A stretch of DNA of 64,000 bases from Lachnospiraceae bacterium (GTDB lineage Bacteria; Bacillota; Clostridia; Lachnospirales; Lachnospiraceae), in NCBI GenBank assembly GCA_015057275.1, contig SVEO01000001.1, positions 62,001-126,000 on the forward strand, in the 5' to 3' direction. Below, piece after piece: positions 776-7,571 of this stretch. The notes beneath the pieces are model-generated. The model was not told the origin of the DNA. It ran no database searches and saw only the letters and a list, made by a program, of their open reading frames with translations. The position numbers and the translations under genes are program-made. The first letter of the stretch is position 1. Each line of letters starts with the position of its first letter.

Positions 776-1657
776 TTAGAAAACTGCCTTTTTTGCCGAC
801 GGAATAATCTCCGAAAGATTTTCCTGAATCTTCGCTGCCACATCCGGCTTGTTCATCGAGTACACGTGAATCGCATTCACGCCATTTGCCAAAAGGTCGA
901 TAATCTGATCGGTCGCATACGCAATCCCCGCCTGCTTCATCGCCTCAGGTTTGTCGCCGAAACGGTCAACAATCGCACGGAATCTCTGTGGTACATTCGT
1001 GCCGGACAGCGCCACGGAACGGCCGAGCTGCTTTGCATTCGTAATCGGCATGATACCTGCGATAATTGGCACGTTAATACCCGCCTCGCGGATTTTATAT
1101 AAATAATTGTATAAAATGCTATTATCAAAAAACATCTGCGTCGTCAAAAATTCGCAACCGGCCTCGACCTTTTCCTTTACATGAAGAATATCTTCCCGCT
1201 GATTTGCCGACTCCACGTGTCCTTCCGGATAGCATGCACCGCCGATACAGAAGCCACCGTAATCTTTGATGTCACGCGTTAGTTCGCTGGCATATCGATA
1301 ATCTTCGGAAACTACTCCGTCCTTTGGAATGTCGCCTCGCAGCGAAAGTACATTCTCAATGCCCGCCGCCTTCAAACGGTCAAGCTGGGAAAACACGGTA
1401 GCACGGCTCGAGGATACACATGTGATATGCGCGAGCGTTGTTACCCCGTAATTATCCTGCAAATCTTTCGCAATCGCAGTTGTATATGCGCTCGTACCAC
1501 CGCCGGCACCGTAGGTCACACTCATAAAATCCGGCTTAAGCTTGGCGATTTCCCTCGTCGCATATTCCACAGAATCATATTTATCACTCGTCTTCGGCGG
1601 AAACACCTCAAACGAAAGTGTCGGTTCCTTTTTTGCCAGTAATTCACTTATCTTCAT
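776..1657 (-). CDS. metF: 5,10-methylenetetrahydrofolate reductase
   Basis: MKISELLAKKEPTLSFEVFPPKTS...; MSVTYGAGGG; classic MetF motifs. Confidence 0.95.
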   Translation of the reverse strand: MKISELLAKKEPTLSFEVFPPKTSDKYDSVEYATREIAKLKPDFMSVTYGAGGGTSAYTTAIAKDLQDNYGVTTLAHITCVSSSRATVFSQLDRLKAAGIENVLSLRGDIPKDGVVSEDYRYASELTRDIKDYGGFCIGGACYPEGHVESANQREDILHVKEKVEAGCEFLTTQMFFDNSILYNYLYKIREAGINVPIIAGIMPITNAKQLGRSVALSGTNVPQRFRAIVDRFGDKPEAMKQAGIAYATDQIIDLLANGVNAIHVYSMNKPDVAAKIQENLSEIIPSAKKAVF

Positions 1658-2397
1658 TTTCGTTCTCCTGTCAATGCGCCATGTGCAACCTCCACCGCCT
1701 CATGGCTGATGTTGCAGCCAAGTCGGTAAATCGGCACACGTGTCAGTACGTAATCTAATAACGTGAGATGCTTATCCATCTCCTCTTCATTTAGATTCAT
1801 AATTGTTTGCTTCATAAATTTCTGCACCGCCATCATCGGATGCACCGGCACAATCACATTTTGCTGTGCACGCTCGAGTAAAACAATGCCGCCGAGTGGT
1901 ACAACGCGATTGACATTTTGGTCACTCTTTCCGCTCCACGGGGTGCCGCACGCGTAAATCTTGCCGTCCTGCACCAAAATCGCTGGTTTGTCGTCATTTA
2001 AAATGTAAGCGCGCTCACCGAAATATTCAAGCCAAAGCTCCGTGTGCGTCGACTTTCCCGTGCCGCTGTCGGCCGAAAATACATACGCAGTGTTGTCGAG
2101 CACCACGCATGACGAATGCAACATAAACCCGTCAAATTTTAACAATTGGCGGTAAAATTCGTAACCGCTGAGCATATACTCCCAGTGCTCCATCGTAAGC
2201 TCCGGGTGTTCATGATGTCTGGCATCAATGACTCTTTGCGGCACTTCGACTGTGATGTCCGCCTCGTCAAGCGGCCATTCCGCATTCGTCACATAACCTC
2301 GTGCCTGCCGCCATGTGTGATTATAATTTAAGAGCATTGCCACTTTTTTGCCGGCAATTTCATATCTTTCAAATTCTCCCAGCATGCTTCTCTCCAT
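1654..2397 (-). CDS. HPr kinase/phosphorylase-like P-loop protein (RiPP-cluster-type kinase)
   Basis: Walker A FSADSGTGKSTHTELW, LNDDKPAI acidic motif, CGTPWSGK; resembles HPrK-like proteins found beside PqqD proteins. Start likely MLGEF (2385). ATGA overlap with metF. Confidence 0.75.
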   Translation of the reverse strand: MERSMLGEFERYEIAGKKVAMLLNYNHTWRQARGYVTNAEWPLDEADITVEVPQRVIDARHHEHPELTMEHWEYMLSGYEFYRQLLKFDGFMLHSSCVVLDNTAYVFSADSGTGKSTHTELWLEYFGERAYILNDDKPAILVQDGKIYACGTPWSGKSDQNVNRVVPLGGIVLLERAQQNVIVPVHPMMAVQKFMKQTIMNLNEEEMDKHLTLLDYVLTRVPIYRLGCNISHEAVEVAHGALTGERK

Positions 2398-2435: not shown

Positions 2436-4166
2436 TTACTTTTCCATCTTCAAGCTACGATTGCTAACGCCAAATGCTGCTTCCTTATGTGAAATCATCA
2501 GGCATGTTTTGCCTTGCATCGCTTTCAAATTCGCCAGCATACGTTCCTCAGTCTGCGCATCAAGTGCGGAAGTTGCTTCGTCTAACAGCAAAATTGGGGC
2601 TTCGCTCAAAATCGCACGTGCCACCGCCACACGTTGTATCTGACCTTCGCTTAATCCGTGCCCTTTCTCACCGACCTGCGTGTCAATACCGTTCGGCAAC
2701 TGTGCAACAAATTCGTAGCAGCAGCTAATTTGCAATGCCTCTGCTATCTGTTCTTCACTCGCCTGCGGTGCCACTAATTGCAGATTTTCACGCAAAGTTC
2801 CGCTGAGCAGGAAATTTCCCTGCGGCACGTATGCAAACATACCTCGGAAGGTCTCATCGAGAGGCATCTTCGTACCATCACGCAGAATAAGCGTTATCTC
2901 GCCACTCATTACCTTATACACGCCAAGCAGCAGTTTCATTAACGTACTCTTGCCGATGCCGGAGTCCCCGTAAAGAACGAAGAAATCGCCCTTGTTCAAT
3001 CTTAAATTGTAGTGAGAAAGCACCTCTTTTTCTCCATAAGAAAATGAAACATCGTCAAATACAATCGCTTCAAATGTCTCATAATATTGTGTAATTTCCG
3101 CTGCCGGACGGCGCAACTGTTCTTCTGCTTCGAGTGCCTCAACCTCCATCAGTCGTTCTGCTGACGCGAGCATCGAGTAATACTGCGGCAAAATGCCTGC
3201 CAGCCCTGAAACCGGCGACTGCATCTGAGTAACCAACTGCAGCACTGCGGTCAATGTACCGACTGAAATCACGCCAAGATACAAGCGGTACGAGCTCCAA
3301 ATCAATGCACAAATAAAGCCAATCTGGAAAATCATCGTGAATCCGCAATTTGCGATAATACTCACATTGCGGCGTTTAATCTTCGCACGGTAATTTACCT
3401 GTTGTAAATCGCCACTCATATGTGTAAGTTGTTCTTCCATTCCATACGTCTTTACTGCCAGCAGATTCTCTAACATTTCCTGCTGGAAGCTGCGCACCTT
3501 ACCTTCCGTTTGCTGCACCTCATGATGCAATGCCTTCATACGCTTTTTCAAATAGGTAGCAATCACGAGCAGAATCGCGCCAATGGCAATAAATACAAGT
3601 GAAAACATCAGGTCAAAATACGCGAGCACTGCAAATGCACCGACAAACCGTAACCCTAAATATAACACATTAGGGAAAATATTTACCATACCGGAACAAA
3701 CGATACTAATGTCGCCAGTCAACCGGGTGAGCAGCTCGCCACTGTGATATGAAGTCACTTCTTCATATTTTTTCCGCAACAGCCCACCAAAAATATAGTT
3801 TTTAAGACCAATTTCGAGTTCCGCCTGTATACGCACGGAAAACATATTTCCGACCACATAGCAGATGAGCTGCAGTGTAATCATTCCTGCCATAGCAGCG
3901 CCAAACAGAAAAATCCGCTGTTTATCAAGGGCGATTGCCGCGTCGAGTACCTCACGCGACACAAGTACGCCAAGAATGCCCGCCACCGCGGAAATTGTAT
4001 ATATCAAGCTTAATAATAAAATCCCCTTCATCCGTCCATACAACCGACTGGATAGCCAGGATAACGCCTTATTGTTTTTCATTCTTATCCCTTTCACTTT
4101 AGAATATAGAAATATGCGTAAATATACCATATTTTTAGGAACATGACAAGTAAAATGCGTATTCAT
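2436..4166 (-). CDS. ABC transporter, fused permease + ATPase (no N-terminal C39 peptidase)
   Basis: TM segments then Walker A GDSGIGKST, signature LSEGQIQRVAVARAIL, Walker B ILLLDEATSALD; start likely MKNNKALSWL. Confidence 0.93.
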   Translation of the reverse strand: MNTHFTCHVPKNMVYLRIFLYSKVKGIRMKNNKALSWLSSRLYGRMKGILLLSLIYTISAVAGILGVLVSREVLDAAIALDKQRIFLFGAAMAGMITLQLICYVVGNMFSVRIQAELEIGLKNYIFGGLLRKKYEEVTSYHSGELLTRLTGDISIVCSGMVNIFPNVLYLGLRFVGAFAVLAYFDLMFSLVFIAIGAILLVIATYLKKRMKALHHEVQQTEGKVRSFQQEMLENLLAVKTYGMEEQLTHMSGDLQQVNYRAKIKRRNVSIIANCGFTMIFQIGFICALIWSSYRLYLGVISVGTLTAVLQLVTQMQSPVSGLAGILPQYYSMLASAERLMEVEALEAEEQLRRPAAEITQYYETFEAIVFDDVSFSYGEKEVLSHYNLRLNKGDFFVLYGDSGIGKSTLMKLLLGVYKVMSGEITLILRDGTKMPLDETFRGMFAYVPQGNFLLSGTLRENLQLVAPQASEEQIAEALQISCCYEFVAQLPNGIDTQVGEKGHGLSEGQIQRVAVARAILSEAPILLLDEATSALDAQTEERMLANLKAMQGKTCLMISHKEAAFGVSNRSLKMEK

Positions 4167-4229: not shown

Positions 4230-4309
4230 ATATATTTAGTGGCGATATTTTTTTAATCGCCGATTAGGAACAAAAAAGGCTGCCATAGTGCTTCAGAATG
4301 GAGAATATT

Positions 4310-4573
4310 ATGAAAATTAAAAGTGGATTTATGCTCCGCAAGGTTGCCGGCAAGCAGGTGGTTGTCCCGGTCGGGAAGGCGACTCTTGACTTTAACGGCA
4401 TGATTACCTTAAACGATAGTGGTGCGATTTTGTGGAACTGCTTGCTGGCGGGTGCCGAGGTCGAGGATATGATTGCCGCATTACAGGAAGTCTATGATGT
4501 GGATGATGCGACCGCAAGAGCAAGCATTGACGCATTTATAAATAGGTTAAAAGAGGCTGATTTATTTGAATAA
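4310..4573 (+). CDS. PqqD family peptide chaperone / RiPP recognition element
   Basis: ~88 aa; VPVGKATLDFNGMITLNDSGAILWNCLLAGAEVEDMIAALQEVYDVDDATARASIDAFINRLKEADLFE matches PqqD pattern; SD GGAG upstream of ATG at 4310. Confidence 0.85.
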   Translation: MKIKSGFMLRKVAGKQVVVPVGKATLDFNGMITLNDSGAILWNCLLAGAEVEDMIAALQEVYDVDDATARASIDAFINRLKEADLFE

Positions 4574-5039
4574 TTTTGTGGAATTAGCAGAAATGTTGCC
4601 GTTGATGCAGGAAATGTTGGACGCGGGAGGCAAGGTTTCCTTTACGCCCTCCGGGGTAAGCATGTTGCCAATGCTTCGCCATCGCCAAGATGTTGTTGTA
4701 CTGACAAAGCCTGTCGGACGGCTAAAAAAATATGATTTGCCGCTCTACCGTCGCGATGACGGTACCTTTGTGCTACATCGTGTGGTAAAGGTATGTGCGG
4801 ATGACACATACACAATGTGTGGTGACCACCAGTGGATTTTAGAGCCAGGCATTAGTGATAAACAGTTGGTTGGTGTCGTCACACAATTCACGCGCGGCAA
4901 CCGCACTTATATGGTCACAAACAAAAAATATCTTGCCTACTGCAGTTTCTGGGTGGCAATTCGTCCATTGCGCGGTCTGTATTTTCGTGCGCGAGGCAAG
5001 CTCGGGAAAATAAAAAGAGCGCTTCTCCGGCGCCATTAA
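4566..5039 (+). CDS. S24/S26 (signal peptidase-like) family peptidase
   Basis: VSFTPSGVSMLPMLRHRQDVVVL (catalytic SxxM-like), DLPLYRRDDGTFVLHRVVKV, TMCGDHQ; typical S24/S26 fold motifs. Confidence 0.8.
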   Translation: MNNFVELAEMLPLMQEMLDAGGKVSFTPSGVSMLPMLRHRQDVVVLTKPVGRLKKYDLPLYRRDDGTFVLHRVVKVCADDTYTMCGDHQWILEPGISDKQLVGVVTQFTRGNRTYMVTNKKYLAYCSFWVAIRPLRGLYFRARGKLGKIKRALLRRH

Positions 5040-5084: not shown

Positions 5085-5309
5085 ATGAAAAATAAGCAGA
5101 AAAAAATGATCCTTATCGTATGTTGCGTTGCTCTGATTGCTATTTTTGCCGGTTTAATGTTTTTAGGTACCAAAGATAAGCCTACAGCCCCTCCGGCTAC
5201 TCGTTCCGACTTGATGGAAGAGTTCGAAGAAGCACATACTACATCGACGATTGACGAACTGGAAAGTGTGGATAATGAAGGCTGGGGCGAATTAATTCCA
5301 CTAAAGTAG
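5085..5309 (+). CDS. Small single-TM protein with acidic C-terminal tail
   Basis: MKNKQKKMILIVCCVALIAIFAGLMFLGTKDKP...EEFEEAHTTSTIDELESVDNEGWGELIPLK; co-directional downstream of peptidase. Confidence 0.7.
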   Translation: MKNKQKKMILIVCCVALIAIFAGLMFLGTKDKPTAPPATRSDLMEEFEEAHTTSTIDELESVDNEGWGELIPLK

Positions 5310-5386: not shown

Positions 5387-5420
5387 AAAACCTCCGGGAA
5401 TTAAGTCCCGGAGGTTTTCT
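5387..5420. terminator. Bidirectional terminator
   Basis: aaaaacctccgggaattaagtcccggaggttttct; strong stem with T tracts on both strands. Confidence 0.8.
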
Positions 5421-5445: not shown

Positions 5446-5607
5446 TTATTCACCAAATACAGAGTCATCCTTTGTTGTCCATACAGACTTAGATACACCC
5501 TGTGTACCATCCCAACCCATGTTGTAGGTTACGATGTTGGAAATCATAATTGCTTCCTGCTCGAAACGAACTACTTCAACTGCAGGAACTTCAAATGTCT
5601 TCTTCAT
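5446..5607 (-). CDS. 53-aa peptide, candidate RiPP precursor (absent from supplied ORF track)
   Basis: ATG at 5607, stop at 5446; MKKTFEVPAVEVVRFEQEAIMISNIVTYNMGWDGTQGVSKSVWTTKDDSVFGE; SD aaggagg upstream; 14 nt after preceding gene; followed by terminator. Confidence 0.75.
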   Translation of the reverse strand: MKKTFEVPAVEVVRFEQEAIMISNIVTYNMGWDGTQGVSKSVWTTKDDSVFGE

Positions 5608-5621
5608 ATTTCTATTCCTCC

Positions 5622-7571
5622 TTAACCAATCACAGTTGAATCAATTGTTACTGTTTCGCCAAATACAGTTTCACCACCAATGGTATAGTATGGAGTTAAT
5701 TCGTATGTAGCTGTCTTATCGTAGTTTGTGATAATGCTTGCGAATGCACCTTCAAAATCGCTGCCGGAAATACCAAGCTGTACACTTTCTGTTACATACT
5801 CTGTAGCGAAATCAACTTCTGCGCCGCCGTTCTTGCTAATCTTTACGCCCATAGCTTCAACACTTGCAAGATTATCGTATACATCAGCAGAAAACTCTGT
5901 GATAAATCTTACATCCGCACCTGTTTCACTCTTCTGAGCATATGTTGTAGCGATATCTGCTACAGGTGTAGCAACTTCGTTGATTGTTAATACAATATTA
6001 CTTAACTTAACCTGCTCACCGGAAAGGTGGATGCTTAATTCATCTGCCAAATCTGCAATCGCCGGTGTAGTACCTACAATGTGATATGTGCTTGCGCCAA
6101 CAATATCATATGTGAAAGTAAGTACATTGCCTGTACGTACAACATTAACTGTTACATCTGCATCTGCCATGGTTGCTCTGAATGCATCCCAGTCTGTTGG
6201 AATTCCTGTCCATGTTGTTGTAACAGTGCCACCCCATGTGCCTAAATCATCTTCATAAGCGCCTGAACCAACACCGTAGCAGTCAGCTCTCATGGTAACA
6301 AAGTTAGGAACCGTGTCAAACAACTCTACTGCAAAGTTTGCGTAGTTCAAAGTTGTATCCTTGCTCTTGTTTGTGAATGTGTAAGTTACATCGAAATCAC
6401 CTGCGCCAAGTGCAACGTCTTCAGAATGTGCACTAAAGCCTGCTGTGATATCTACTGTCTCACCTTCGTCTTCAACGATTTCCTTCTTTTCAAACGTAAT
6501 GTTTGTCAGCTTAACCTGCTCACCGGAAAGGTGGATGCTTAATTCATCTGCCAAATCTGCAATCGCCGGTGTGGTACCTACAATGTGATATGTGCTTGCG
6601 CCAACAATATCATATGTGAAAGTAAGTACATTGCCTGTACGTACAACATTAACTGTTACATCTGCATCTGCCATGGTTGCTCTAAATGTTGCCCAAGCCG
6701 CATCGTCTGCTGGTACACCTGTCCATGTTGTTGTAACAGTGCCACCCCATGTGCCTAAATCATCTTGATACGCACCCGAACCAACACCGTAGCAGTCAGC
6801 TCTCATGGTAACAAAGTTAGGAACCGTGTCAAACAACTCTACTGCAAAGTTTGCGTAGTTCAAAGTTGTATCCTTGCTCTTGTTTGTGAATGTGTAAGTT
6901 ACATCGAAATCACCTGCACCAAGTGCAATATCTTCAGAATGTGCACTAAAGCCTGCTGTGATATCTACTGTCTCACCTTCTTCTTCATCGTCAACACGTT
7001 CATTCTTTGTAAACGTAATGTTTTCCAATGTAACCTTTTCACCGGAAAGGTGGATGCTTAATTCATCTGCCAAATCTGCGATCTCCGGTGTCGTACCTAC
7101 AATGTGATATGTGCTTGCGCCAACAATATCATATGTAAAGGTAAGTACATTGCCTGTACGTACAACGTTAACTGTTACATTTGCGTTTGCCATGGTTGTT
7201 CTGAATGCAGCCCAGTCTGCTGGAATTCCTGTCCATGTTGTTGTAACAGTGCCACCCCATGTGCCTAAATCATCATTATACGCACCTGTACCAGCACCAA
7301 CGCCATAGCAGTCAGCTCTCATGGTAATAAAGTTACCTGCCGTATCAAACAATTCTACAGCGAAATTGTTCCAGTTTGCACTTGTGTCCAGGCTCTTGTT
7401 TGTGAATGTGTAAGTCACATCAAAATCGCCGGAACCGAGTGCCTCGTCCCCTGAATTAGCATTAAATGCGCCTGTAATGTTTACCGATGTACTTGTCTCA
7501 GCAAATACCGATAACACAGATGCAAGCACCATAATTACTGCTAAAACAGCTGAAAGAATTCTTTTTTTCAT
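5622..7571 (-). CDS. Secreted protein with three ~165-170 aa tandem repeats and a distinct C-terminal domain
   Basis: Signal peptide MKKRILSAVLAVIMVLASVLSVFAE; repeats with GDFDVTYTFTNKS...DDLGTWGGTVTTTWTG...STYHIVGTTP. Confidence 0.88.
   Translation of the reverse strand: MKKRILSAVLAVIMVLASVLSVFAETSTSVNITGAFNANSGDEALGSGDFDVTYTFTNKSLDTSANWNNFAVELFDTAGNFITMRADCYGVGAGTGAYNDDLGTWGGTVTTTWTGIPADWAAFRTTMANANVTVNVVRTGNVLTFTYDIVGASTYHIVGTTPEIADLADELSIHLSGEKVTLENITFTKNERVDDEEEGETVDITAGFSAHSEDIALGAGDFDVTYTFTNKSKDTTLNYANFAVELFDTVPNFVTMRADCYGVGSGAYQDDLGTWGGTVTTTWTGVPADDAAWATFRATMADADVTVNVVRTGNVLTFTYDIVGASTYHIVGTTPAIADLADELSIHLSGEQVKLTNITFEKKEIVEDEGETVDITAGFSAHSEDVALGAGDFDVTYTFTNKSKDTTLNYANFAVELFDTVPNFVTMRADCYGVGSGAYEDDLGTWGGTVTTTWTGIPTDWDAFRATMADADVTVNVVRTGNVLTFTYDIVGASTYHIVGTTPAIADLADELSIHLSGEQVKLSNIVLTINEVATPVADIATTYAQKSETGADVRFITEFSADVYDNLASVEAMGVKISKNGGAEVDFATEYVTESVQLGISGSDFEGAFASIITNYDKTATYELTPYYTIGGETVFGETVTIDSTVIG
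5985..7490 (-). repeat. Three tandem intragenic repeats, ~500-520 nt period
   Basis: Blocks such as ctcaccggaaaggtggatgcttaattcatctgccaaatctgc recur near 6010, 6511 and 7037; tctcatggtaacaaagttaggaaccgtgtcaaacaactctact recurs at ~6288 and ~6789. Confidence 0.9.

Follow-up and report, generated by a model that had tools for sequence, protein, structure and literature searches.

A candidate precursor of a clostridial LPP-type peptide, encoded behind a secreted repeat protein in a Lachnospiraceae bacterium

Linear polyphosphorylated peptides (LPPs) were described by Popov et al. 2026 (PMC13381572) for the lppAKBSDN genes of Paenibacillus alginolyticus DSM5050, a gene set that was found by starting from a SipW-like peptidase. 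As described there, LppK adds up to four phosphates to Ser3 of the LppA core, LppS cuts after Thr-1 with the help of the RRE LppB, and the NTP transferase (NTase) was inactive in the host used. In the LppB-LppA crystal structure of the same report, D70 forms a hydrogen bond with the leader Tyr. When LPPs were reported, in May 2026, neither a final product nor a role was given, and no mention of Lachnospiraceae, Clostridia, or secreted or surface proteins was found in the main text (PMC13381572).

This study was concerned with a 53-aa ORF in a 64,000-nt stretch of a Lachnospiraceae genome, referred to below as the window. A preliminary description had proposed the ORF as a candidate precursor peptide, a proposal that is now supported by homologues, by a conserved N-terminal part and by proximity to PqqD genes. 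The ORF is, in our judgment, very likely the precursor of a clostridial LPP-type RiPP.

The 53-aa ORF and the genes around it

The ATG start, strong Shine-Dalgarno sequence, terminator after the stop and close position behind a repeat-protein gene that the preliminary description had listed were all confirmed. The Shine-Dalgarno sequence is AAGGAGG, 9 nt before the ATG, and 14 nt separate the ORF from the stop of the gene for the 649-aa repeat protein. A hairpin lies 3' of the ORF stop (Table 1). The operon of the PqqD, S24-type peptidase and TM protein genes runs toward this same hairpin, which can act as a bidirectional terminator and end both transcripts. The minus strand between 5446 and 6292 showed no promoter-like site. 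With no such site directly before it, the 53-aa ORF probably closes the repeat-protein operon as its last cistron.

Table 1. Positions of the features in the window, beside it and in related loci.
Feature	Position	Strand	Remarks
Precursor peptide (LppA-like), 53 aa	5446..5607	-	leader FEVPAVEVVRFEQEAI; candidate acceptor Ser23; variable Trp-containing tail
Hairpin, 13 pairs	5387..5418	both (.)	between converging precursor and PqqD operons
Small single-TM protein	5085..5309	+	ends in DNEGWGELIPLK; counterparts in other clusters, including the G013 TM protein
SipW/S26-type signal-peptidase-like protein	4566..5039	+	Ser32, His71, probable Asp98; predicted leader peptidase
PqqD-type discrete RRE	4298..4573	+	Pfam PF05402, E=1e-16; profile match to LppB chain 9x8z
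MsbA-like exporter ABC protein	2436..4166	-	start probably ATG at 4082; no peptidase domain
HPrK-related kinase	1654..2397	-	SGTGKST Walker A and NDDKP motifs; predicted kinase
649-aa secreted protein	5622..7571	-	signal peptide, three ~160-aa repeats, C-terminal domain; one predicted operon with precursor downstream
NTase, PF14907	G000:C28:57923-58648		ends 3.0 kb before window start, beyond metH
Echoing TM/lipoproteins elsewhere	L041:817-1416, L151:9260-9766, L115:3710-4054, L193:546-1283		

The conserved start of the window PqqD is probably the ATG at 4310. In the S26 peptidase, Ser32 and His71 were invariant in nine clusters, and position 98 was Asp in seven of the nine and Glu in two. The 39-residue spacing of Ser32 and His71 equals that of S29/H68 in LppS, as a comparison of residue spacing. 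The predicted structure (pLDDT 90) had signal-peptidase folds as its best PDB matches, although weak ones (4n31, E=1e-3, TM 0.5). The top NCBIfam match of the ABC protein was MsbA (TIGR02203, E=1e-74), below the equivalog cut-off.

The HPrK and ABC genes lie on the strand opposite to PqqD. The window HPrK is 31-43% identical to the cluster kinases and closest by sequence (about 50%; about 46-53%) to stand-alone HPrK-like kinases of Eubacterium-type MAGs with no PqqD nearby. Its assignment to the cluster is thus a putative one, based on its nearness to the other genes and on the clusters of G013 and G001. The HPrK alignment returned nothing from the PDB at E<=0.01. Several of the stand-alone kinase loci (L094-L101, L103, L136) have a lipoprotein-like gene following the kinase. 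In the window, the end of the HPrK gene, including its stop, and the start of a methylenetetrahydrofolate-reductase-like gene share 4 nt (1654-1657), with metH further on, and translation of the kinase gene may be coupled to that of the folate genes.

Precursor family, PqqD clusters and secreted partners

A single-sequence search with the 53-aa peptide returned two relatives, both in G013, from another genus, and 39-50% identical. In each, a secreted-protein gene is followed by the peptide (16-20 nt gap) and, after a short gap, by a small TM protein with a GWG motif at its end, and one copy lies within a cluster of HPrK, PqqD, S24-type peptidase, ABC and NTase genes. A three-sequence profile had matches in 23 of 299 genomes of the bacterial family and a 22-sequence profile in 51 of 397 at E<=0.1, the weakest of which are not all real. 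Because the G013 relatives share the gene order and profile matches occur across the bacterial family, the ORF is beyond chance, and at the level of sequence it is confirmed as real and conserved. None of the Pfam and NCBIfam models matched the peptide or 21 of its relatives.

About 80 distinct precursors, several of them assigned by profile only, align over their N-terminal ~25 residues as [Y/F]xxPxxEV.xFE.ED[IV]IT[TA]SG, and their tails vary freely. Positional entropy was 0.4-1.6 bits at the aromatic residue, Pro, Phe, Asp, two aliphatic positions and Ser, compared with about 3.6 bits across the tail. The N-terminal part of the 53-aa peptide is thus kept and the tail is not, the pattern that the preliminary description had looked for. 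The same description had read the tail as rich in Ser, Thr and Trp, with several possible kinase acceptor sites. A kinase-modified precursor is in keeping with our results, but a Ser/Thr tail is not a property of the family, and tail residues were rejected as family-wide kinase sites, as 13 of the 80 tails have no Ser or Thr. Most likely the kinase acceptor is instead the near-invariant Ser at the leader/core junction, which lies at P+16 in 75 of 80 precursors and at P+15 in the window (S23).

A second precursor of the window genome, MKKEFFEAPEIEIMTYEYENIMTLSGGGQGGDDGMEDDL (G000:C17:16701-16820; L013:6702-6821, minus strand), is encoded behind an aspartyl-tRNA synthetase gene and not behind a secreted-protein gene. 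A related cluster in Ruminiclostridium cellobioparum (L157:7626-9686) has three candidate precursors of a different style (YVKPAFTFIKLRTEEGIACSG..., YVKPFLECISYKIEERLANSCTG..., YQKPVIKFFDLHTEELLANPG...), two with Cys in the tail.

Homologues were found near PqqD, S24 and HPrK genes well above chance, an association that the preliminary description had proposed to check. In 20 genomes, 14 of 43 peptide matches lay within 15 kb of a PqqD gene, compared with 2.5% expected; the binomial value of about 2e-12 treats matches as independent and becomes 2e-8 by contig. In addition, 80 loci of the GTDB collection were seeded with the HPrK alignment, which also brought in stand-alone kinases; a leader peptide was present in 15 of 51 loci with PqqD or S24 and in 1 of 29 without (p=0.004). 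The usual cluster near precursors is HPrK-PqqD-S26-peptidase-ABC-NTase without lasso B2. The window's genus is represented by only two genomes, and in the other one (G001) a repeat-protein homologue, precursor, TM protein, HPrK, PqqD and S24 stand in a row. Many precursors in other genomes lie far from any RRE.

The precursors also tend to follow genes for secreted proteins. In 37 of 54 cases, a gene of 200 aa or more on the same strand ends within 400 nt upstream, often with a gap of 4-35 nt. A simple signal/TM hydrophobicity rule classes 20 of the 30 complete upstream partners as secreted, compared with 60 of the 351 remaining genes of these loci (p=2e-8). For example, homologues of the 649-aa protein precede a precursor in G001 and in G013, and G228 encodes two different secreted proteins with an identical 55-aa precursor behind each. 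The predicted structure of the repeat domain (pLDDT 64) was too poor for a fold search. A C-terminal region of the vRFITEFS / lGfVTTIS type is common to secreted partners (window 5622-6000, minus strand; L011, L012, L204), and Pfam did not detect this region in the window protein. Peptide matches number 17 in G651, 14 in G507 and 11 in G545, genomes from another family of the order (f11), each with one PqqD beside HPrK and S24. Together with G522 and G466 of the same family (loci L224-L226, L249-L258), these genomes show dispersed precursor matches and a single PqqD by HPrK and an S26 peptidase.

Pairing of leader and RRE, and the membrane-protein tail

When LppB (9x8z) was aligned to the PqqD profile, its residues N33, D70 and F74 corresponded to N39, S76 and F80 of the window protein. 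The window RRE therefore keeps the N33 and F74 equivalents and has Ser at the position of D70, where Asp occupies 69 of 75 RREs of the first set. The window leader (FEVP) has Phe where LPP leaders have Tyr. L114, the only other Phe leader then paired with an RRE, had Cys at the D70-equivalent. The neighboring RREs of three further Phe leaders found by the leader profile (G214, G327, G710) were checked after the prediction, and all three had Ser. Thus, a non-Asp RRE accompanies the Phe leader in 5 of 5 linked pairs and the Tyr leader in 1 of 30 (L107, Ala; Fisher p=2e-5), and the three later Phe pairs alone differ from the Tyr pairs at p=7e-4. Five changes are required to place the Phe trait on the RRE tree, and supported branches force at least three of them; phylogenetically independent pairs on supported branches number only three (two agree, none oppose, one is neutral), too few for a sign test. 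This covariation links the window peptide to the window PqqD.

In many clusters there is a gene for a TM protein or lipoprotein whose ectodomain is rich in Ser, Thr and acidic residues, and the C-terminus of this protein often resembles the tail of the precursor from the same locus. For example, EYELPFIP occurs in both proteins of G008 and ELPFVPA in both of L151, and further likenesses are DGVIDFDDLLEAAG / DGEINFDDLLDAGG (L115) and GWTGYY / GWSGYY (G001). The match in the window is weak (NEGW/NMGW). The summed tail similarity of 17 loci was reached by none of 20,000 partner shuffles (permutation p about 5e-5), in a test that was made after the pattern had been noticed and in which most of the signal comes from a few pairs. 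A recognition step shared by the C-termini of the membrane protein and the precursor is our guess.

Interpretation and comparison with known systems

Three other readings of the 53-aa ORF were considered. Its position directly behind a secreted-protein gene, and the secreted look of the upstream partners in general, would also suit a small accessory subunit or chaperone of the repeat protein, with the PqqD association incidental. However, the conserved part appears to be an RRE-binding motif and not a structural domain, the peptide has no signal peptide, several precursors lie inside a PqqD cluster without a secreted partner (L074, L222), and the leader covaries with the RRE, so that we regard a subunit or chaperone as very unlikely. 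The covariation bears as well on the idea that the window precursor is an orphan remnant, a decaying member of its family. Several conserved positions do deviate, with Phe for Tyr, ISN for TTSG and a length one residue shorter, but the ORF, Shine-Dalgarno sequence and terminator are intact, the window RRE has the matching Ser76, the other precursor of the genome also reads FxxP, and the Ser, Phe15 and Glu16 of the family are retained; decay is accordingly quite improbable.

The smallest probability is given to a lasso-peptide precursor of a paeninodin-like cluster with its cyclase elsewhere. The YxxPx[L/V] leader motif, PqqD, HPrK, NTase and ABC are common to the paeninodin and pseudomycoidin clusters, and Gly follows the conserved Ser in many family members. 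In contrast, PF13471 (Transglut_core3, lasso B2) was found over the cut-off neither in the window genome nor in 17 others with such precursors, and no Asn synthetase (PF00733) was found near the clusters, the best match in G000 being an unconvincing partial one (E=7e-6, 244-aa frame). Furthermore, there is no consistent Asp/Glu acceptor at core positions 7-9, and the cores of many precursors have only about 8-15 residues. With B2 absent and a cyclase not linked to the clusters, the lasso reading was rejected.

For the favored reading, an LPP-type precursor, the following pathway is proposed. The PqqD protein would bind the FxxPxV leader, and the HPrK kinase would phosphorylate Ser23, perhaps repeatedly; this Ser follows the motif Pro at a distance of 15 residues, precisely the spacing of the phosphorylated S3 of LppA (P-13 to S3). 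With the help of the RRE, the S26 peptidase would remove the leader just before Ser23, leaving by LppA spacing a core of residues 21-53; both cleavage site and acceptor are thus inferred by spacing. The NTase, which lies outside the window, may attach an additional group, and the ABC protein would export the core. More speculatively, the modified peptide might act at the cell surface with or on the repeat protein, because the precursor is probably on the same mRNA as this large secreted protein, and the small membrane protein, with a C-terminus able to echo the precursor tail, might be part of the same recognition step.

A wider scheme is offered tentatively, as one that we consider less likely than not. 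In Clostridia, an LPP-like pathway may have turned into a cell-surface system, in which many scattered precursors, each produced together with a large secreted protein of its own, share a single set of RRE, kinase and peptidase. A common surface partner would bind both the core, phosphorylated and perhaps glycosylated, and a membrane protein showing the same C-terminal tail. In leader recognition, Tyr/Asp would have given way to Phe/Ser on several occasions. The location of most precursors directly behind large secreted proteins gives LPPs their first functional lead. The Phe/Ser pair is a natural experiment on the published Tyr-Asp contact, and Phe/Ser versus Tyr/Asp a simple code to match precursors with RREs. 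The widespread clostridial branch is in itself a large natural data set.

Among known systems, the SynChlorMet (ScmC) and HPr-rel-A cassettes (TIGR04249, TIGR04352/04353) also combine an HPrK-like with a PqqD-like protein, but the model matches are weak, with scores far below the cut-offs, and no radical SAM gene was noticed among the listed cluster genes. The phosphorylated lasso peptides (paeninodin PadeK, pseudomycoidin PsmK/PsmN; PMC9266682) share an HPrK-type kinase, NTase, discrete PqqD RRE, ABC exporter and [Y/W]xxP leader. Unlike their clusters, the window type has an S26-type peptidase and neither a B2 protease nor a macrolactam cyclase, and the Ser predicted as its acceptor lies where leader and core meet instead of at the C-terminus.

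LPP clusters and the window type have in common a discrete RRE, a SipW-like S26 peptidase, an HPrK kinase, an NTP transferase, an MsbA-like exporter and the lack of a cyclase. The window locus itself has the S26 Ser-His-Asp residues, the discrete RRE, a putative HPrK-like kinase, the MsbA-like exporter and, 3.0 kb outside the window, the PF14907 NTase. The precursors are alike in that a conserved leader is closely followed by a conserved Ser and the tail varies; the leader reads YxxPxVLxHQxIxFETxxS in LPPs and xxPxxEV.xFE.ED[IV]IT[TA]SG in the clostridial family. The window leader contains FxxPxV, but the Bacilli signature Px9Fx[T/A] is absent, with Glu18 at P+10 and Phe at P+7. Since this narrow signature fails and the aromatic-xxP motif and the spacing of the Ser are kept, the window precursor is a variant and not a plain LPP member. 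This clostridial leader variant is new here, as are three features that set the system apart from LPPs: the Phe/Ser recognition pair of the window, dispersed precursors that are usually coupled to secreted-protein genes, and an additional TM protein or lipoprotein whose C-terminus echoes that of the precursor.
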